Below are positions 3,689 to 24,942 of a DNA stretch of 35,767 nt, in pieces. Both the position numbers and the translations under genes were made by a program. The number at the start of each line of letters is the position of its first letter. Position 1 is the first letter of the stretch. The notes under the pieces are model-generated. The model had not been told where the DNA came from. It did no database searches and saw nothing but the letters and a program-made list of their open reading frames with translations. The DNA is from Candidatus Coproplasma excrementipullorum (GTDB taxonomy: Bacteria; Bacillota; Clostridia; Christensenellales; Borkfalkiaceae). The DNA lies in contig DVNU01000018.1 in assembly GCA_018714165.1 (NCBI GenBank), positions 1 through 35,767 of the forward strand, in the 5' to 3' direction.

Positions 3689-6508
3689 TTAAACGTTTAA
3701 AATTTTCTTCAAGAACTGACCCGTGTAACTTGCGGGATTTTGCGCAACCTCTTCGGGTGAGCCCGTGGCGACTATCGTGCCGCCGCCGTCACCACCTTCG
3801 GGGCCGAGGTCTATGATATAATCGGCCGTCTTTATGACATCGAGGTTGTGCTCGATGACGAGCACGGTGTTGCCGCCTTCGCGCAGGCGTGCAAGAATTT
3901 TTACGAGCTTGTCGACGTCGTAACTGTGCAAACCTGTGGTGGGTTCATCGAGAATATAGAATGTCTTGCCCGTGGAGCGCTTTGACAACTCGGTGGCGAG
4001 CTTGACCCTCTGTGCCTCGCCGCCCGAAAGAGTGGTCGAGCTCTGGCCGAGCTTGATATATCCCAGGCCGACATCGCACAATGTCTGGATTTTATTGTGA
4101 ATCGCCGTTACGGGTTTGAAGAATTCGGCCGCCTCCTCGCAGGTCATATCGAGAACATCGGCGATTGATTTGCCCTTGTACTTTACCTCCAGCGTCTCGC
4201 GGTTGTAGCGCTTACCGCCGCACACCTCGCAGGGGACGAAGATGTCGGGTAAAAAGTGCATGGCAATCTGCAAAATGCCGTCGCCCTGGCAGTGCTCGCA
4301 CCTGCCGCCCGCGACATTGAAGGAGAACCTGCCCGACTTATACCCCCTCTCCTTGGCGTCGGGAGTGGCGGCGAACAGGTCGCGGATGGGCTGGAACACG
4401 CCCGTGTAAGTTGCGGGGTTGGAGCGGGGCGTTCTGCCTATGGGTTGCTGGTCTATGGCGATGACCTTGTCGAAATACTCCAGGCCCTCGAAGGAGTCGG
4501 CGTCGCCCAGTTTCTGGCGGGCGCCGTTCAGATTGTTTGCCAGGTAGGGATAGACAATTTCGTTGACAAACGACGACTTGCCGCTGCCCGAAACGCCCGT
4601 CACTGCGGTGATCAGCCCCGCGGGAACGGAGATATCTATATTCTTTAAGTTGTTCTGACGGCAACCGTGCACCTTGAGCCAGCGACCATCAGGCTTTTTT
4701 CTCACTGTCGGCACTTCTATTTTGCGCCTGCCTGCCAAAAAGTCGCCCGTGATGGACTTGGGCTCGTTCATGATATCCTCTTGTGTGCCGCAGGCCACGA
4801 CTTCGCCGCCGTGCACGCCCGCCATGGGGCCGATATCAACTATATAGTCGGCCGCCCTTATGGTGTCCTCATCGTGCTCCACGACAATGAGTGTATTGCC
4901 TATGTCGCGCAGGCCCTCAAGAGACTTTAAGAGCTTTTCGTTGTCGCGCTGGTGCAAACCTATAGAGGGCTCGTCGAGAATGTACAGCACGCCTGTGAGC
5001 GCACTGCCAATCTGAGTGGCCAGCCTTATGCGCTGGCTCTCTCCGCCCGAGAGGGTGGCCGCATTGCGCGAAAGCGTGAGATAGCCCAGACCGACATCCT
5101 CAAGGAAGTTTATGCGGTTGTCTATCTCCTTGATTATGCTGTCAGCAATCATATGCTCGGTCTTGTTGAAGAAGGAGAAGTCGGAAAACTTCTTTAAGTC
5201 ATCCACCGACATATCGCACACCTCGGCTATATTCTTGCCGCCGACAGTGACGGCCAGTGCCTCCTTTTTGAGCCTCTTGCCGTGACAGCAGGGACACTCG
5301 GCAGTGCGCATATAGCGCTCGATGTCCCACTTTACGCTCTCGGACTGGGTCTGGTTGTAGCGGCGCTGAAGGTTGGCTGCAAAGCCCTCCCAAGCCGACT
5401 TATAGCTGGTTGAGAATGTGCGCGAGGAGTAATCCATTGCAATCTTTTCGCCGCCGTTGCCCCACATAAGCATATCGTAAATACCTTCGGGCAAATCCTT
5501 TACAGGCACATCGAGGGAAAACCCGTAGGCCTTGGACAGCGAATTGAGATGCATCTGCGTTACGGTGGATGAGTCGAGGTTCCAGCCGCTTATTTTAATT
5601 GCGCCCTCGCGCAGAGTCTTGCTTTTATCGGGGCATATCAAATCGGGATCTATCGACTGAGTGAAGCCCAGGCCCGAACATTCGGGGCAGGCGCCCCAGG
5701 GCGTGTTGAAGGAGAATAAGCGGGGCTCTATCTCCTCTATTGAGATGCCGCAGTCGGGGCAGGCGTATTTGGAGGAATAGAGCTCCTCCTTGTCGTCACA
5801 GTCGATGACGACGAGACCGTCGGCGAGTTTAAGGGCGTTTTCAAGACTGTCCGTCAGTCTCTTCAAAATGCCGTCCTTGATTACCAGCCTGTCGACGACT
5901 ACAGAGATGTTGTGGCGGATATTCTTCTCCAGATGAATTTCTTCCTGCAAATCGTAGACTATGCCGTCTATTTTTACCCTGCCGTAACCGCTCTTTTTAT
6001 ACGAGGCCAGCTCCTTTACGTACTCGCCCTTTTTGCCGCGCACGACGGGTGCCTCCACCATAATCTTGCTGCCGGCAGGCATGAGCATTACCCTGTCGGC
6101 AATTTCGTCGACAGACTGACGGCGTATCTCCCGCCCGCACTTGGGGCAATGGGGAACGCCCACGCGCGCGAACAGCAGACGGAAATAATCGTAAATTTCC
6201 GTAACCGTGCCCACCGTTGAACGGGGGTTGCGCGAAGTCGTCTTCTGGTCAATGGAAATTGCGGGCGAAAGTCCGTCTATTGACTCTACGTCGGGTTTTT
6301 CCATCTGACCCAAAAACTGGCGGGCGTAGGAGGACAGACTTTCGATATACCTCCTCTGCCCCTCTGCAAATATTGTATCGAAGGCGAGCGTCGATTTGCC
6401 GCTGCCCGAAAGTCCCGTGAACACAGTTAAAGTGTTGCGGGGGATATGCACATCTATATTCTTTAAATTATTTTCCTTTGCGCCTTTTACAAAAATTTCT
6501 TCTTTCAT
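3689..6508 (-). CDS. uvrA: Excinuclease ABC subunit A
   Basis: UvrA is the damage-sensing ATPase of nucleotide excision repair. As a dimer it loads UvrB on distorted DNA. The 939-aa product has the full family length and two ABC modules. Walker A GLSGSGKST is near residue 32 and GVSGSGKSS near 639. Signatures LSGGESQR (about 488) and LSGGEAQR (about 826) are present. Zinc-finger pairs include CPKC, CPDC, CPCC and the C-terminal CEHC/CEVC. The signature order and cysteine pairs leave little doubt. It starts 27 bases after the uvrB stop and should be read from the uvrB promoter. No clear Shine-Dalgarno sequence precedes the ATG (AACACAGATATG). Confidence 0.98.
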   Translation of the reverse strand: MKEEIFVKGAKENNLKNIDVHIPRNTLTVFTGLSGSGKSTLAFDTIFAEGQRRYIESLSSYARQFLGQMEKPDVESIDGLSPAISIDQKTTSRNPRSTVGTVTEIYDYFRLLFARVGVPHCPKCGREIRRQSVDEIADRVMLMPAGSKIMVEAPVVRGKKGEYVKELASYKKSGYGRVKIDGIVYDLQEEIHLEKNIRHNISVVVDRLVIKDGILKRLTDSLENALKLADGLVVIDCDDKEELYSSKYACPDCGISIEEIEPRLFSFNTPWGACPECSGLGFTQSIDPDLICPDKSKTLREGAIKISGWNLDSSTVTQMHLNSLSKAYGFSLDVPVKDLPEGIYDMLMWGNGGEKIAMDYSSRTFSTSYKSAWEGFAANLQRRYNQTQSESVKWDIERYMRTAECPCCHGKRLKKEALAVTVGGKNIAEVCDMSVDDLKKFSDFSFFNKTEHMIADSIIKEIDNRINFLEDVGLGYLTLSRNAATLSGGESQRIRLATQIGSALTGVLYILDEPSIGLHQRDNEKLLKSLEGLRDIGNTLIVVEHDEDTIRAADYIVDIGPMAGVHGGEVVACGTQEDIMNEPKSITGDFLAGRRKIEVPTVRKKPDGRWLKVHGCRQNNLKNIDISVPAGLITAVTGVSGSGKSSFVNEIVYPYLANNLNGARQKLGDADSFEGLEYFDKVIAIDQQPIGRTPRSNPATYTGVFQPIRDLFAATPDAKERGYKSGRFSFNVAGGRCEHCQGDGILQIAMHFLPDIFVPCEVCGGKRYNRETLEVKYKGKSIADVLDMTCEEAAEFFKPVTAIHNKIQTLCDVGLGYIKLGQSSTTLSGGEAQRVKLATELSKRSTGKTFYILDEPTTGLHSYDVDKLVKILARLREGGNTVLVIEHNLDVIKTADYIIDLGPEGGDGGGTIVATGSPEEVAQNPASYTGQFLKKILNV

Positions 6509-6535
6509 ATCTGTGTTATTGACGTAAAAATATAT

Positions 6536-8521
6536 TTAATCCTTCTTTTTTACCGACCCCTTTCCGGCCGTCATCATTCTCTTCTTCAGTTGTGAAATAG
6601 CATCGCGAATCTCTATGGCGCGTTCGAAGTCTAGCTGGGAGGATGCCACCTTCATCAAAGCCTTTAATTTTTCTATCTCGGCGGGGATATCCTGAAGCTT
6701 TATGTCGTCGCCCGCCTTCTTTTTAGTAGTAATGCCGAGGTCAATTTTTATGTCCTTGATAATCGTTTTGGGCACTATGCCGTGCTCTTTGTTGTATGCG
6801 TCCTGAATGGCGCGGCGGCGGTTGGTCTCGTCTATCGCCCTCTTCATGCTGCCCGTCATCTCGTCGGCGTACATTATAACTCTGCCCTCGGCATTGCGCG
6901 CGGCGCGGCCTATGGTCTGGACGAGTGAAGTTTCGCTCCTCAAAAAGCCCTCTTTATCGGCATCCAGAATTGCGACGAGCTTGACTTCGGGCAGGTCTAG
7001 TCCCTCTCTTAAGAGGTTGATGCCGCAGAGAATGTCAAACTCGCCCGAACGCAGTCCGTTTATTATGTCGATGCGCTCCAGTGCGTCGATATCAGAGTGC
7101 ATATAGCGCACCTTGAGGCCGTGCTCCTTTAAATAGTCTGTGAGGCTTTCGGCCATTTTTTTAGTCATGGTGGTGACGAGCACGCGGCCCTGGGTGGCGA
7201 GAACCTTTTTGATTTCGCCTAAAAGATCGTCTATCTGGCCCTTTGTGGGGCGTATTTCGACCTGAGGATCCAAGAGGCCCGTGGGGCGGATGAGCTGTTC
7301 CACCACCTGCCCCGCCTCCCCCAGTTCGTAGGGTGCGGGCGTGGCTGAAACACAGATGAGCTGTGGCACGCGCGCGTCGAACTCTTCAAAAGTCAAAGGT
7401 CTGTTGTCATAGGCCGACTTTAAGCGGAAGCCGTAATTTACAAGATTGTCCTTGCGCGAGCGGTCGCCGTGATACATGGCGCGTATCTGCGGTATGGTCA
7501 TGTGGCTCTCGTCTATGAACACGAGAAAATTATTCTTGGGAAAGTAATCAAGAAGGGTGAACGATGGCTCGCCGGGGCTTCTGCCGTCGAAATAGCGCGA
7601 ATAATTTTCCACGCCCGAACAGTAGCCTATCTCCCTCATCATCTCAAGATCATAGGTGGTACGCTGTTCGAGGCGCTGGGCCTCAAGCAGTTTGCCTTCG
7701 TCGCGGAAGGCCTTTACCTCATCGTGCATATCGCGCTCTATCATTGAAAGGGCGCTTTGCATTTTGTCGCTGCCGACGGCATACTGGCTGGCGGGGAAGA
7801 TCAATACGTGTTTGAGCTCGGAAATTATTGTGCCGGTGAGCGCCTCCTCTTCACATATTCTGTCTATCTCATCGCCGAAAAACTCGACGCGTATTGCAAC
7901 TTCAGAATTGGACGCGGGAAAAATCTCTACTATATCGCCGCGCACGCGGAAGGACGAGCGCTGAAAATCGATATCTCTGCGCTGGTACTGAATCTCCACA
8001 AGGTTGCGCAGAAGCGCGTCGCGCTCCAGCTCCATTCCGGGGCGGAGTGAAATTGCAAGGCGGAAGTATTCTTCGGGCGCGCCCAAACCGTATATACAGG
8101 AGACAGAGGCGACTACTATTACATCGTCCCTTTCACCGAGCGAGCTCGTGGCAGAGTTGCGGAGCTTGTCTATCTCGTCGTTTAGGCTCATATCCTTTTC
8201 GATATACGTATCGGTTGAGGGAATGTAGCTTTCGGGCTGATAATAGTCGTAGTATGACACAAAGTATTCCACCCTGTTTTCAGGGAAGAACTCCTTGAAT
8301 TCGTTGCACAGCTGGGCGGCGAGCGTCTTGTTGTGGGCGATGACGAGCGTTGGGCGGTTGACGTTTGCAATAACGTTTGCCATAGTGAAGGTCTTGCCCG
8401 AACCCGTAACACCCACGAGCACCTGTGTGCGGATACCGTCCAGCACGCCCTCGGTGAGATGTGCTATGGCCTGCGGCTGGTCGCCCGTAGGTTTGAATTT
8501 TGAATGTAACTTGAATTGCAT
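6536..8521 (-). CDS. uvrB: Excinuclease ABC subunit B
   Basis: UvrB is the helicase-like core of excision repair that verifies damage and recruits UvrC. Walker A GVTGSGKT is at residues 37-44. The damage-probing beta-hairpin ([11 protein letters not shown]) is near residue 95. The DESH Walker B box, helicase motif VI (QTIGRAARN) and the C-terminal UvrC-binding UVR motif ([11 protein letters not shown]) all follow. The track begins at a TTG (8533). The ATG at 8521 ([15 protein letters not shown], 661 aa) agrees with the family and lies downstream of the predicted transcription start. The predicted leader is only about 18 bases, has no Shine-Dalgarno sequence, and is mostly taken up by a LexA-box-like element. 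uvrA follows in the same operon. Confidence 0.98.
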
Positions 8522-8527
8522 AATTTT

Positions 8528-8539
8528 AAACAAATGTTT
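8528..8539 (-). promoter_or_regulatory. Candidate LexA (SOS) operator of uvrBA
   Basis: Read on the plus strand this is AAACAAATGTTT. The core AACAAATGTT fits the Bacillus DinR/LexA core AAC-RNRY-GTT; the outer G and C of the full GAAC-N4-GTTC box are changed. It covers about +1 to +12 of the predicted uvrB transcript. uvrB is a classic LexA target in Bacillus. No lexA gene is in the window, so this rests on motif and position. Confidence 0.5.
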
Positions 8540-11618: not shown

Positions 11619-11647
11619 TTGACAAACGCGCTTTTCAGCGCTATAAT
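11619..11647 (+). promoter_or_regulatory. Consensus promoter of the radical-SAM/DUF4130 operon
   Basis: TTGACA (11619-11624), a 17-base spacer, then TATAAT (11642-11647): a perfect sigma-A promoter. The expected +1 is near 11654, giving a leader of about 135 bases before the ATG at 11789. Such a strong core promoter usually needs a repressor. Confidence 0.85.
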
Positions 11648-11655
11648 ACGTATAC

Positions 11656-11667
11656 AAACAAACGTTT
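11656..11667 (+). promoter_or_regulatory. Candidate LexA (SOS) operator
   Basis: AAACAAACGTTT at about +3 to +14. With its left neighbour it reads CAAAC-AAAC-GTTTG, fitting the Bacillus LexA consensus CGAAC-RNRY-GTTYC at 12 of 14 positions by eye. It differs at one of 12 bases from the element at the uvrBA start. The site can also be read as a wider palindrome centred on AACGTT, so another repressor is possible. Confidence 0.5.
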
Positions 11668-11719
11668 GCTTGCTGTTATATTCGGGTTTTTGACAGCTTG
11701 CAGGCGTTTACGGCCCGCA

Positions 11720-11756
11720 ATGCGGCGTTCGGGTTTTGCCGCATCGTTTCCTTTTT
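11720..11756 (+). promoter_or_regulatory. Leader hairpin followed by a pyrimidine tract
   Basis: ATGCGGC (11720-11726) pairs with GCCGCAT (11738-11744), followed by CGTTTCCTTTTTTCC. This could be a weak intrinsic terminator or attenuator in the 5' leader of the radical-SAM operon. TTCGGGTTTT occurs twice in the leader (about 11681 and 11728), the second copy inside the hairpin loop. Confidence 0.3.
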
Positions 11757-11788
11757 TCCTTGGGATTAAGGGCCTTAAGGATTAAGTT

Positions 11789-13048
11789 ATGTTAGACGCC
11801 GAAAGACTTGAAATTCTTACCGAAAGCGCGAAATATGACGTATCCTGCTCCTCGTCCGGTTCTAAACGGGTGAACAGGGACGGGGGTATCGGGAACGCTT
11901 CCGTCGGGGGAATATGCCACTCCTTTACCCCTGACGGAAGATGCATTTCTCTTTTGAAAATTTTAATGAGCAACGACTGCATTTACGACTGCGAATACTG
12001 CCCCAACAGGGCCAGCGCGGACGTGAGGCGGGCAACCGTCACTCCCGAAGAGATTTGCGAGCTGACGATAAATTTTTATAAGCGAAATTACATCGAGGGG
12101 CTATTCCTCTCCTCCGCCGTGTTCGGCAATCCCAACAGGACTATGGAACTGTTGACGCGCACGGTGACAATGCTGAGAAAGCAGTATAACTTCAACGGGT
12201 ACATTCACTTAAAGGGCATACCCCACGCCGACGAGGCGCTGTGTCTGCGCGCTGCCAGGCTGGTGGACAGAATGAGCTACAACATAGAACTGCCCAGCGA
12301 AAAATCGCTCAAATTGCTGGCGCCTCAAAAGACGCGCGACAGCCTGCTGGTGCCCATGAAAAAGCTGTACGCCGCCACCGTGTACGACCGCGAAAATAAA
12401 GTAAAGCGCGCGGCGAGGGTTATACCCGCGGGACAGACGACGCAGATGATAATAGGCGCATCACCCGAAAGCGACGGGCAGATTTTAAAGCTTACGCAGG
12501 CCCTGTACAGAAGCTTCGGACTGAAGAGGGTGTACTACTCCTCCTATATCCCAGTCGTAAAGAGCGCCCGCCTGCCCGACAAGGCGGCAGGGCTCCTGCG
12601 CGAACACAGGCTGTACCAGGCTGACTGGCTGTTGCGCTTTTACGGGTTTGACGTAGACGAGATATGCGGCGAGGGCGACAACCTTTCGCCGGACTTCGAT
12701 CCCAAATGCGCATGGGCGCTCAGAAATTTACACCTCTTCCCCGTCGAGATAAACAAGGCGCCGCTGGAAATGCTTTTGCGCGTACCGGGCATCGGGGCGC
12801 GCGGGGCGTACAGGATAACCGAGGCGAGAAAGTTTGCAAAGCTTGACTTTGATAATCTTAAAAAAATGCGCATAATACTCAAGAGGGCAAAGCATTTTAT
12901 AACTTGCAACGGAAAGTTTTACGGCGCAGAGGGCGAAAAGATGATTAAAGCTTCGCTTATGCTGTGCGACAGGACGGACGACAGCGAACAGCTGTCGCTC
13001 TTCTCCACCCCCGAGACGGGACTTTCCGCCCTGACGGGAGAATTATGA
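11789..13048 (+). CDS. Radical SAM protein, putative DNA modification/repair (TIGR03916-like)
   Basis: A 419-aa radical SAM protein of the subfamily annotated as putative DNA modification or repair radical SAM protein. The 4Fe-4S cysteines form CxxxCxxC at C64, C68 and C71 (CIYDCEYC). The C-terminal third holds a ComEA-like helix-hairpin-helix (LRVPGIGARGAYRI, about 329-342), a non-specific DNA-binding motif. Conserved blocks such as GGICHSFTPDGRCISLLKIL and HLKGIPHAD suit this subfamily. The substrate is unknown; DNA is inferred from the HhH domain and from the usual pairing with DUF4130 and uracil-DNA glycosylase-like proteins. AAGGA nine bases before the ATG is a weak ribosome binding site. 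The stop overlaps the next gene as ATGA. Confidence 0.88.
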   Translation: MLDAERLEILTESAKYDVSCSSSGSKRVNRDGGIGNASVGGICHSFTPDGRCISLLKILMSNDCIYDCEYCPNRASADVRRATVTPEEICELTINFYKRNYIEGLFLSSAVFGNPNRTMELLTRTVTMLRKQYNFNGYIHLKGIPHADEALCLRAARLVDRMSYNIELPSEKSLKLLAPQKTRDSLLVPMKKLYAATVYDRENKVKRAARVIPAGQTTQMIIGASPESDGQILKLTQALYRSFGLKRVYYSSYIPVVKSARLPDKAAGLLREHRLYQADWLLRFYGFDVDEICGEGDNLSPDFDPKCAWALRNLHLFPVEINKAPLEMLLRVPGIGARGAYRITEARKFAKLDFDNLKKMRIILKRAKHFITCNGKFYGAEGEKMIKASLMLCDRTDDSEQLSLFSTPETGLSALTGEL

Positions 13049-13776
13049 CATTTTATCTTACGGACGGCAGTGAGGACTGCTTTTATACAGCCGTATTCGA
13101 CTGCTACGCCGACAAGCAGGGTGTGATAACCAGCCGCAGAGACGTGCAACTGGCACTTGACAGCGAGGTTAAAGAGGTTGCCACAGACGACAACAAGGCA
13201 ACCAGAGTAAAAAAGAAAATTGCCGAGTACGACAGCGCGGCCCTGGGCGACATAACGCTTGCGCTACGCTCCTGCGACGGCAACAAGGAACAGGTTGCCC
13301 TTGAATATATAAGACAGATAATCAAGCGCCGACGCCCCGTGCGCACAATGACCAATCTGCCAGACGTTATGGAGATGGAGGACATATGCAGCCGCGTTAC
13401 CGGCGAACTGCACAAACTTAAGGGGTTTTTGCGGTTTATGGAGAACGATAAGGGCGTATTGTACGCCCCCTACTCCCCCGACAACGACATAACCGACCTT
13501 TTAGCCCCGCACTTTGCCGAGCGGTTGAAGAACCAGAAGTTTGTCATTCACGATATCAAACGTAAGATTGCCGCACTGTACGACGGAAACGAAATTATCA
13601 TCTGCTTTGCCGACGGCGCGGATGTGTACCTGTCCGAATATGAGCAGGAATTTGAGGAGCTGTGGAAGCTATACTACAAATCCGTAAACATCAAGGAGCG
13701 CCCGCACGAAAAACAGATGAAGGGCTATATGCCCGTGCGATACTGGAAATTTCTGCCCGAAAAAAGGGATAATTGA
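13045..13776 (+). CDS. DUF4130 / TIGR03915-family probable DNA metabolism protein
   Basis: A 243-aa partner of the radical SAM protein. The ATG at 13045 (MTFYLTDGSEDCFYTAVFD) overlaps the radical-SAM stop by four bases and has GGGAG in front, so the track start at 12964 is rejected. The N-terminal TDGSEDCFYTAVFDCY and the C-terminal RPHEKQMKGYMPVRYW are typical of this family. In other bacteria the family is often fused to a UdgX-like uracil-DNA glycosylase domain. That domain is missing here, and no glycosylase gene is in the window. No catalytic residues are established, so its action is unknown; a nucleic-acid role is inferred from genetic pairing. There are no membrane segments or signal peptide. 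Confidence 0.85.
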   Translation: MTFYLTDGSEDCFYTAVFDCYADKQGVITSRRDVQLALDSEVKEVATDDNKATRVKKKIAEYDSAALGDITLALRSCDGNKEQVALEYIRQIIKRRRPVRTMTNLPDVMEMEDICSRVTGELHKLKGFLRFMENDKGVLYAPYSPDNDITDLLAPHFAERLKNQKFVIHDIKRKIAALYDGNEIIICFADGADVYLSEYEQEFEELWKLYYKSVNIKERPHEKQMKGYMPVRYWKFLPEKRDN

Positions 13777-13785
13777 ATAAAAATA

Positions 13786-13821
13786 AAGGAACGGCTCTGC
13801 GCAAGCGCAGAGCCGTTCCTT
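13786..13821. terminator. Bidirectional terminator between DUF4130 and DUF975 genes
   Basis: A near-perfect 17-bp stem, AAGGAACGGCTCTGCGC/GCGCAGAGCCGTTCCTT, with AA between the arms. On the minus strand it is followed by TATTTTTATTC, a good U-run for the DUF975 transcript. On the plus strand only ATAATG follows, so termination of the radical-SAM operon may be weaker. Confidence 0.75.
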
Positions 13822-15833: not shown

Positions 15834-16100
15834 GCTGCGCTAGGTGGGGAGATAGCGGTGCCCTGAACCTGCAATCCGCTACAGCAGGACTGAATGCCCT
15901 TCCCGACCGCCAAGGTGGAAGGCCGCGCCGTATAAGGGGTGTTGATTACAAGGTCTTATGCAACCGTCAACTGCGAACCGTGTCAGGATAGGGATATAGC
16001 AGCACTAAACAGTCCCGACGGTGTGCCATAAGGTTGCTTTGTAGGAGCTACCTGTACGGTTTACGCTTCGGCCTTTGCGGGCAAAAAGGGATGCGCAGTA
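15834..16100 (+). ncRNA. ffs: Bacterial large signal recognition particle RNA (with Alu domain)
   Basis: SRP RNA binds Ffh and targets ribosomes making membrane proteins. The 5' part GCTAGGTGGGGAGATAGCGG and GCAATCCGCTACAGCAGGACTGAAT match the Alu domain of the Bacillus-type RNA of about 270 bases. The Ffh-binding domain IV reads GTGTCAGG-ATA-GGGA-TAT-AGCAGCAC, matching TCAGG...AGCAGC with a GGGA tetraloop. CTGCGC (15835-15840) pairs with GCGCAG (16093-16098), closing helix 1 and fixing the ends. A matching promoter and terminator flank it. Both domains leave little doubt; the exact ends are inferred. Confidence 0.93.
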
Positions 16101-21519: not shown

Positions 21520-24500
21520 TTATGGATTTTGCGTGAAACTTGCCGCGAATTTTAAAAAATTTGTCATGCCGAGCATAGTTTTGACGGGCGTGGCCGACGG
21601 TTTGAACACAATGGACGGCACTCTTGCCATAGACAGCGTGACTTTGCCCGAATATCTTTGGAGTGCGGCCGAAAGTTTTCCGTCGCTGAGCGAATTTACG
21701 CCCGCAAGTTCGAGCGTGCCCCCCCTGGAATTTACGCTTATCTTTTTTACGCCGAAGGGCGAGGCGTAAGCCTTTAAGACGGCGATTATCAGCAGGTTGA
21801 ACACGCAGTCCGGCATCTCGCCGTAGTTCTCCTCTATTGAGTGAAGCACGCGCTTGTAATCGCCCACCGTGCGGATCTCGGCAATCTGCTTGTAAGCGTC
21901 CAGTCTGCCGGCGCTGCTCTCGATATAGCTTTCGGGAATATAGGCCGTGGCCTTCACGTCAAGTTCGGCAGAGAACACGTTTTCACCCGTGAGCTCCTCT
22001 TTTAAGAGTTTGGAGTACAGCTCGTAGCCTACCTTGTCCATGTGTCCGTGCTGCTCGGCGCCGAGCACGTTGCCCGCGCCGCGTATCTCCAGGTCGCGCA
22101 TGGCTATTTTAAAGCCCGAACCGAGTTCGGTAAACTGCATTATGGCCTTGAGCCTTTCGGTGGCTTCGCTGGTCATTACTTTGTCGGGACGGAAGGTGAA
22201 GTATGCCGAGGCCAGGCGGGCGCCCCTGCCCACCCTGCCGCGCAACTGATAGAGCTGGGAGATACCGAGGCGGTCGGAATCGATGACTATTATGGTGTTC
22301 GCGTTGGGCAGGTCGATGCCGTTTTCGATTATGGTCGTGGTGACGAGCACATTCTTTTCGCCGCGGTAGAAGGCGAACACGTTGCCCTCAAGCGTGTTTT
22401 TGTCCATTCGTCCGTGAGCGTATGTGATATTTGCTTCGGGCACAAGCTCACAGAGCTTTCCTGCGAAGGACGAGATTGTCTCCACCCTGTTGTACAGCAC
22501 AAACACCTGTCCACCGCGCGAAATTTCACGCAGAATGGCGTCGCGGATGAGCGCGGGAGTCTCCTCCACCACGTAGGTCTGCACGGGCAGTCTCTTCTGG
22601 GGCGGGGTATTTATGGTGCTTATGTCCCTTATGCCCGCCAGAGACATGTGCAGGGTACGGGGAATGGGCGTGGCCGTCATCGTAAGGCAGTCTATGTCGT
22701 TTTTGATGTGCTTAATCTTTTCCTTGTGCTCAACGCCGAAGCGCTGTTCCTCGTCGAGGACGAGCAGGCCGAGATCGTAGAACTTGACATCGTCGGATAA
22801 AAGACGGTGGGTGCCGATTATGACGTCGATATCACCATCGGCGAGCTTTTTTAAGACCTTCTGCTGTTCGGCGGGAGTTTTGAAACGGTTGAGCTTTTCA
22901 ACGCGCACGCCGAAGTCATTGAAGCGCTTTAAGGCCGTCTGGTAATGCTGTTCCGAAAGTATGGTGCTGGGGCACATGAATGCCGCCTGCTTGCCGCCGA
23001 GCACGCACAGATATATTGCGCGCAGGGCAACTTCGGTCTTGCCGTAGCCGACGTCGCCGCACAGCAGTCTGTCCATAACCTTGGGGGAGCACATATCCCT
23101 TTTTATCTCTTCAATGCTGGCGAGCTGGTCGGGCGTCTCCTCATACTCGAAGGCCTCCTCGAACTCCTCCATCATTGCGGCGTGTTCGGGGAAGGCGTAG
23201 CCCTTTTTTGCCGCGCGTTCGGCATACAGCTCCTTTAAATCGAAGGCCAGCTTCTTTATGGACTGGCGCACCCTCTCCTTTACCCTGTCGAATTCGGCGC
23301 CGCCTATCTTCGAGAGTGCGGGATTGCTCTCGCCCGTGTATTTGGAGAGGATATCCATCTGCTCGACGGGGACATACAGCACATCGCCGCCGCGGTATTC
23401 TATGGCGATGTACTCCTTTATACCGTCCGTCGTTTCAATCTTTTTGGTACCGGTGATCTTGCCTATGCCGTGCTTTTCATGGACGGCGTAGTCGCCGATT
23501 TCAGGCGAGGTGAACATATCGCCCCTGCGGCGGCGCAGGCGGCGCTGGACAGACTTTGTGTAGATATCGCCGCTGCCGACGACGGCCAGCTTGGCCTCGT
23601 GCAGGACAAAGCCCTTGTACAGCTCCTCCGAGCTGAGGCATACGCCGCGCATGGCATCCAGCCTGTCGGGCAGAGGGTCTGCGGCGATCATCTGGCTGTC
23701 GAGCGCGTCGGTGAGCTTTTCAAGCCGCTGAACGTTGCCCGTGAATATAAGAACGCGGTATCCGCCCGCACGCCAGTTTTTGACGTCCTCTATGAGCGTG
23801 GGTACAGAATTGAGATAGGACGGCGTGGGCGTAGAGCGCAGGTTGTAGGTCTTAAGCGGTCTGAAAAACTGCGTTGACGAGGTGAATGTCTGCAACGCGA
23901 GGTTGCGGAAGGAATTTATGCGGGCGATGAACGCGTCCCCGGTCATCATCTGGTCGAGGGAGAAGGCAAAGACCTCTCCCCCCGCCTTTAAATTTTTGTA
24001 TCTTTCGCGGTGCTCCTTTCCGACGGCGGTGAGCCTGTCGGAGATGGTCTTACACTCGTCGAGTATGACGAGTGCATCAGCAGGCAAAAGATCGAACACC
24101 GTGCGCGAGGACGATAAGAGCGGCATGAGGAAGGCCGCTCCGGCAAACGGTGCGCCGCTTGAAAGCTTTGTTTCTATCTCATCCGCAAGGGCGCGCGAGC
24201 GTTCGTGTGCGTGTACGTCGGGGCAGTCTTTAAGTCCCGCAGAGAGCGCAGAATGGATTTTAGGCAGGTCGGTCTCTTCTACGGCGCAGTCGGTTGCGGC
24301 AATGATTGTGACCGTCTGAACATCCTCAAGCCGCTCGCCGCTGACTGAATCATAGGGGCGTATTCTCTCGACAGAGTCGCCGAAAAAGTCTATGCGGACG
24401 GGATTTTCGCTCCCCACGGGCCAGATATCCAGAATGTCGCCGCGCAGGGCAAAGCAACCTGCCGTTTCGACGGCATACTCGCGGGTATAACCCATACCGA

Positions 24501-24942
24501 CAAGGGTAGCGGGCAGGGACATGAAATCCGCCTCCTCCCCCTTATTTAAGACAACCGTAGGCAGGGATGCGGGCACGAGCTGAAGAGCCGATTCCACGTC
24601 GCAGACAATTATTTCTGCGCCGCAGAAAATGCCGTGCAGAGCATCTATGCGTCGAAAGAGCGCATCACGGGAGATTGCATCCTTGTATAAAAGCACGTCG
24701 TCCTTGGCCGAAAGGTATGCACACTTTTTGCCGGAAAGCGTCTTTATGGCCTCACACGCCTTTTCGGCGGCGATGTGGTCGGGCGCAATGTACAGGCTGA
24801 CGCCTTCAAATAATGAAGCGGTTAGGTATTTTTGACTATCAGATACACCAAAAACCGCCGTCGGAGTACCGAGGCGGACGTCGCTTTGCAGGGCGGGATA
24901 GTCGCCCTTTAAGTTGTCGCAAGTGAAAAAGTTTCTATTCAT
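21520..24942 (-). CDS. mfd: Transcription-repair coupling factor
   Basis: Mfd removes RNA polymerase stalled at lesions and recruits UvrA, linking transcription to excision repair. The 1140-aa product has the full layout. A UvrB-like N-terminal part comes first. The CarD-like RNA-polymerase-interacting domain starts near 484 ([14 protein letters not shown]). Walker [15 protein letters not shown] is near 629-642, DEEQ near 729, and helicase motifs such as [11 protein letters not shown] and QLRGRVGRG follow. The C-terminal TRCF domain is last. It follows pth by 43 bases, the usual Firmicutes order. No clear Shine-Dalgarno sequence is seen (CACTGCATTGAATG), but the MNRNFF start fits the family. 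Confidence 0.97.

Follow-up and report, generated by a model that had tools for sequence, protein, structure and literature searches.

The locus and its gene pair

The window analysed here, a 35,767-nt stretch of contig DVNU01000018.1 from Candidatus Coproplasma excrementipullorum (assembly GCA_018714165.1), carries a two-gene cassette in which a gene for a radical SAM protein is followed by one for a DUF4130 protein (Table 1). The first product scores 581.5 bits against TIGR03916 (curated cut-off 343.5 bits), and the second scores 204.7 bits against TIGR03915 (E 1.8e-60, cut-off 112.25) and 153.1 bits against PF13566 (E 7e-45, cut-off 27), the Pfam DUF4130 domain spanning residues from about 80 onwards only. 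At the junction, which reads ATGA, the ATG at 13045 overlaps the TGA of the radical SAM gene, and this overlap is kept in nearly every congener. A mechanical ORF finder starts the DUF4130 gene at GTG 12964; relatives start at the ATGA codon. An initial annotation had described a radical SAM enzyme with a helix-hairpin-helix (HhH) coupled through ATGA to a DUF4130 protein, and this description is borne out, with both families over their cut-offs, the junction visible in the DNA and the HhH itself below the Pfam gathering cut-off.

We take COG4277 to be the likely COG of the TIGR03916 protein. The pair as such is already catalogued: NCBI names both families as putative DNA repair proteins, TIGR03916 being called 'putative DNA modification/repair radical SAM protein', with the short names rSAM_link_UDG for TIGR03916 and SAM_7_link_chp for TIGR03915. 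In order, adjacency, coupling and scores above the curated cut-offs, the cassette agrees with the catalogued pair and differs from it in nothing essential; it is an ordinary member without a uracil-DNA glycosylase (UDG) domain. The window also contains a uvrB-uvrA operon (3689-8533, both genes confirmed), mfd (21523-24942) and, on the plus strand, a large bacterial SRP RNA (15835-16098, Rfam RF01854).

Table 1. Features of the cassette and of the uvrB reference site, in window coordinates
Feature	Position	Strand	Basis or remark
LexA-type (SOS) box AAACAAATGTTT, directly upstream of uvrB	8528..8539	.	comparison site for the SOS box, same genome
Sigma-70 promoter TTGACA-17 nt-TATAAT of the cassette	11619..11647	+	12/12 consensus bases
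LexA-type (SOS) box CAAACAAACGTTTG, shortly after the -10 element	11655..11668	+	RAAC-N4-GTTY, Clostridia-type
Radical SAM protein TIGR03916, 419 aa	11789..13048	+	E 1e-174
Three further invariant Cys codons (C20, C43, C52), preceding the radical SAM motif	11846..11944	+	108/108 relatives, 11/11 further partners
Radical SAM cluster motif C64-x3-C68-x2-C71	11978..12001	+	sequence; invariant in 108 relatives
Helix-hairpin-helix (HHH_3, ComEA-like), residues 319-350	12743..12838	+	weak PF12836 match and PDB relative
DUF4130 protein TIGR03915, 243 aa, ATGA overlap between its start and the stop of the first gene	13045..13776	+	profile matches and model
Hairpin, 16-pair stem, terminator-like (T run on minus strand), between the cassette and the convergent gene	13786..13821	.	

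Pairing, distribution and neighbourhood

The two families travel together. Each is found in 39 of 61 relatives, and their occurrence disagrees in only two genomes, each an incomplete assembly. A scan of GTDB species genomes returned at least 591 relatives, the best 80 of which, taken as diverse loci, come from Clostridia, Negativicutes, Bacteroidota, Geobacter, Elusimicrobia, Synergistaceae, Methylomirabilis and Adlercreutzia. In 77 of these 80, DUF4130 and the radical SAM gene share a locus, adjacent or within a few kb and nearly always as direct neighbours; in the remaining three, DUF4130 is elsewhere in the same genome. The adjacency of the two genes is far beyond chance. In Hymenobacter, one or a few genes stand between them, and in Heliobacterium chlorum the gene after the radical SAM gene encodes a photolyase in place of DUF4130. 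Among genomes sampled from the phylum, about a quarter (29 of 120) encode DUF4130, which is also present in other phyla.

A search among the neighbours of the pair for a third conserved gene found none. Beyond the pair, the genes that recur are of generic signalling and ABC types, or encode an XPD-like helicase of the XPD/DinG class, which sits downstream in five Lachnospiraceae-type loci. Repair genes are occasional neighbours, such as a photolyase (L079) or an XPD/DinG-type helicase (L115, L144), and no restriction or defence gene recurs beside the pair. Two side observations concern the wider family. Diverged DUF4130-like proteins in six genomes fall below the TIGR03915 cut-off (E 1e-21 to 1e-27) and possibly form a sister family. 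A 240-kb record filed as 'Acinetobacter phage MD-2021a' (CAKLQH020000003.1) carries the pair among chromosomal genes, glyS/glyQ included, and appears to be host chromosome deposited under a phage name.

A LexA-type box in the cassette promoter

The box behind the cassette promoter belongs to the same class as the boxes in front of lexA and uvrB in the same genome. Its strict form, RAACAWWYGTTY, occurs at only five distinct sites in this genome, three of which lie in front of lexA, uvrB and the cassette. In C. difficile, LexA boxes of the form GAAC-N4-GTTT/C are bound at the lexA, recA, ruvCA and uvrBA promoters, as measured by surface plasmon resonance (PMC4234289). The cassette promoter thus carries a putative LexA operator of the class found at known SOS genes of its own genome, which suggests that the cassette is under LexA control. 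Genome-wide pattern searches gave no enrichment of the box (6 hits, against 13 for the reversed pattern); it is the placement of the sites and their conservation that carry the argument. The 14-mer CAAACAAACGTTTG recurs at G000:C41:18773 (L164), with no recognisable repair gene nearby. As a third SOS reference gene, recA was dropped, since the recA loci of relatives in the genus show no LexA-type box within 300 bp upstream; the SOS circuit may therefore be wired unusually here. The 135-nt leader of the cassette (11654-11788) folds strongly, at about -51 kcal/mol with flanks, and contains a GC-rich hairpin with a T-rich run behind it, which may be an attenuator.

Conservation across relatives speaks for this assignment. 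RAAC-N4-GTTY is present in the 250 bp before the radical SAM gene in 28/28 congeners and 45/80 diverse loci, compared with 23 of 590 stretches upstream of other genes at these loci and 0 of 77 downstream stretches. Other spacings of the half-sites give 0 to 2 of 80, and mononucleotide shuffles a mean of 1.35 of 80. Within the genus, some base-permuted palindromes also score (24/28 for one of them), and because the near-identical promoters of congeners overlap such permuted palindromes, the diverse set is the fairer test. The 35 diverse loci in which the Clostridia-type box is absent belong mostly to Bacteroidota, Geobacter-type bacteria and Negativicutes, with some Clostridia; most of these lineages are expected to use other LexA motifs.

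Other lineages do show boxes of other types. Eight of eight alphaproteobacterial cassettes in which DUF4130 is fused to a UdgX domain carry GAAC-N7-GAAC 17-39 bp before the start, and a GAAC/GTTC repeat at spacings of 4-6 or 8-10 is found in none of the eight. GTTC-N7-GTTC is the published alphaproteobacterial LexA motif (PMC8565304). In Caballeronia, the sole betaproteobacterial fused example, the corresponding site is CTGTATAAACATACAG, an E. coli-type box (CTGT-N8-ACAG). With boxes of different lineage types in front of it, the pair looks like an SOS-controlled unit operating under several different LexA codes, as far as promoter sequences can indicate.

Earlier work points in a related direction. 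An SOS-controlled, UDG-based two-gene operon, COG1573-COG4277, has been predicted in Bacteroidetes, and a UDG-based repair system has been reported for Verrucomicrobia and Alphaproteobacteria (PMC8565304). A 2013 paper names DUF4130 in one legend, where an SOS gene network shows it next to UDG and to radical SAM proteins of the SplB-like type (PMC3765255). Among the open-licence papers searched, these two were the ones that named the families, one giving COG4277 and the other DUF4130; neither SOS control of the unfused pair in Clostridia nor a pairing of UdgX with radical SAM was found there.

Fused and unfused forms

The initial annotation had stated that the second protein is fused to a UdgX-like domain in many bacteria and had proposed looking for a stand-alone UdgX elsewhere in the genome. 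Fused forms do exist, in Leisingera, Paracoccus and others; those found here lie on alpha- and betaproteobacterial plasmids. In control searches, Caulobacter vibrioides gave matches to TIGR03914, TIGR03915 and TIGR03916 alike. The search of the organism's own genome (a 1.72 Mb assembly, 81% complete) gave no match to TIGR03914, the UdgX domain; the UDG superfamily is represented there by two genes only, one for a family-1 Ung and one for a TIGR04274 deoxyinosine glycosylase. Treating the cassette as a special minimal version without a UDG proved mistaken: the TIGR03914 cut-off is passed by 0 of 120 genomes of the phylum and by 0 of 61 Bacteroidota, which makes the unfused pair the usual form in either phylum. 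Given the Bacteroidota result, orthologue-group naming may lie behind the 'UDG base-excision' label attached to the SOS operon of Bacteroidetes.

The fused domain retains GEQPG in 9/9 forms and a KRR[IL]H-type stretch in 7/9. The KRR[IL]H motif is typical of the uracil-crosslinking UdgX, in which the role of this motif in crosslinking is established. The fusion operons of Alphaproteobacteria such as Leisingera and Paracoccus share with the present cassette an orthologous radical SAM protein with six cysteines, the C-terminal core of DUF4130, the start/stop overlap and a LexA box in front. The cassette differs from them in having no UdgX, a LexA box of another type, and a stand-alone DUF4130 with an N-terminal subdomain (about residues 1-70) and Asp170. 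UdgX and family-4 uracil-DNA glycosylases, fused to the partner protein in Proteobacteria, are represented by no gene in this genome. An anticorrelation between the cassette and a stand-alone type-4 UDG was considered and set aside, being suggestive in the order and not significant in the phylum (16/29 vs 66/91, Fisher p 0.11). In five related genomes that lack the cassette, two type-4-like UDG genes sit close together as a tandem pair.

The DUF4130 protein

Near-invariant positions in stand-alone DUF4130 proteins are E121, R130, F131, P145, H156, F157, R160, D170, W207, R219, P230 and E239. Stand-alone proteins from Acinetobacter and Bacteroides retain D170 and most of this set. In the nine fused forms, D170 is lost throughout, H156 is mostly Phe, and E121 is replaced by Asp, Cys or Ala, with the Arg/Trp/Pro framework of the domain kept. 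The N-terminal ~70 residues are absent or unrecognisable in eight of the nine and strongly diverged in the Caballeronia protein. The absence of the N-terminal subdomain and of Asp170 from the fused forms suggests that UdgX took over part of the function of DUF4130. The fused sample represents one broad proteobacterial group, so the contrast between fused and unfused forms may reflect a single evolutionary event.

This contrast, together with the predicted fold, raises the idea that DUF4130 is an enzyme in its own right, a distant relative of the DHH/DHHA1 phosphoesterases (the RecJ, NrnA and Cdc45 class), and that UdgX substitutes for it in Proteobacteria. A structure model built from 78 sequences is confident (pLDDT 95.2, pTM 0.88), and its 13 best Foldseek matches in the PDB are all DHH-superfamily phosphoesterases or relatives; the loss of the N-terminal subdomain and Asp170 from all nine fused forms, and of His156 from most, would fit the replacement of such an activity. 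The matches themselves are weak, however. The best reaches probability 1.00 and E 1.1e-3 at a TM-score of about 0.40 and an rmsd of 14 A, no match has E <=0.001, and a search of a viral fold library returned weak DHH-like matches only. Membership in the DHH superfamily found no support in profile comparison, since hhalign against NrnA and RecJ profiles built here gave a probability of ~0.1%. DHH and DxD metal motifs are absent from the window protein, and across the N-terminal part of 115 homologues only D7-G8 is conserved, which could recall motif I. DHH/DHHA1 phosphoesterases are the top fold matches of the model, with weak scores, no sequence support and no DHH motif, and we give the reading of DUF4130 as a catalytic distant relative of them a low probability. 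A solved relative of DUF4130 was sought and none was found.

The radical SAM protein

Six cysteines (20, 43, 52, 64, 68 and 71) are invariant in all 119 radical SAM proteins compared (108 relatives and 11 others, mostly partners of fused forms). The HhH match to PF12836 has an E-value of 2e-4, below the Pfam gathering cut-off, and the closest PDB relative of the stretch is the ComEA-like 2duy. Among NCBIfam models, the nearest other families are ThiH, BioB, MoaA, HydG and MqnE, and no spore photoproduct lyase model appears among the matches up to E 5. The analogy with spore photoproduct lyase (SplB, COG1533) drawn in the initial annotation consequently stands for the shared radical SAM chemistry, spore photoproduct lyase being a member of the same enzyme class that acts on DNA damage, and fails for family kinship. 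The cassette enzyme also differs from that lyase in having a partner protein and an HhH, and lies nearer to ThiH, BioB and HydG. Spore photoproduct lyase is reported to be SOS-regulated in some phyla (PMC8565304).

Proposed function and alternatives

The cassette is probably an SOS-induced, two-protein unit for processing DNA lesions. The evidence drawn from the sequences comprises the two families, their coupling and co-occurrence, the LexA-type boxes, the invariant residues and the difference between fused and unfused forms. LexA most likely represses the cassette from the box between promoter and genes, and DNA damage would release it together with uvrBA. The weak HhH match and the regulation point to DNA as the substrate: the radical SAM protein may hold DNA through its HhH while a 5'-deoxyadenosyl radical acts on the damaged base, with C20, C43 and C52 as candidates for a second metal site or for hydrogen or electron donation. 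The co-translated DUF4130 protein would be an obligate partner that either recognises or presents the lesion or performs a second catalytic step through its Asp170/Glu121/His156 region. In Proteobacteria, the fused UdgX of the uracil-crosslinking type may take over part of this DUF4130 step.

The division of labour could also run differently, with the radical SAM enzyme serving as an activator or maturase of DUF4130, its protein substrate, and DUF4130 acting on DNA. Such a relationship would explain the obligate pairing and coupling as well as the invariant acidic, His and Arg residues of stand-alone DUF4130. It is less easily reconciled with the position of the HhH on the radical SAM protein itself, or with a cysteine set that is unchanged where DUF4130 is truncated and fused to UdgX, though Asp170 and other residues are lost; the separation of the genes in three genomes also speaks against it, though it is compatible with maturation. 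On balance, this arrangement appears rather improbable.

The initial annotation had left room for either direct lesion repair or base modification. The LexA-type boxes strengthen the first, and the SOS-type promoter makes base modification less likely than a damage response. A pair that makes a hypermodified base or an epigenetic mark would draw on a radical SAM chemistry able to functionalise bases and would agree with the word 'modification' in the NCBI family name, but LexA-type control in several lineages that differ in LexA code suits a damage-induced role and does not suit constitutive marking, and no restriction or defence genes recur nearby; this makes it quite improbable. The least probable reading, with RNA or a small molecule as the target and SOS control as incidental, could appeal to the weak HhH match (E 2e-4, below the gathering score) and to the cofactor enzymes ThiH, BioB, HydG and MqnE as closest relatives, and is opposed by LexA-type boxes across phyla, the fusion to a UdgX with the KRR[IL]H motif and the repair-gene neighbours.

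Significance

The pair itself is already catalogued; what the present analysis adds is the set of LexA-type boxes and the contrast between fused and unfused forms. Boxes of different lineage types make a damage response testable for a widespread, uncharacterised pair, and the residue exchange between the two forms narrows attention to a few key positions: D170, E121 and H156 in DUF4130, and C20, C43 and C52 in its partner. Beyond the favoured reading of an SOS-induced lesion-processing unit, a bolder version may be offered tentatively, as a possibility that we regard as doubtful: a six-cysteine radical SAM enzyme and a DHH-like DUF4130 enzyme would together make up a widespread SOS repair pathway, compatible with anaerobes, that removes a lesion requiring radical chemistry, and UdgX would have displaced the activity of DUF4130 in Proteobacteria. 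If true, this pathway would constitute a distinct kind of repair, standing alongside photolyases, spore photoproduct lyase, AlkB and excision repair.
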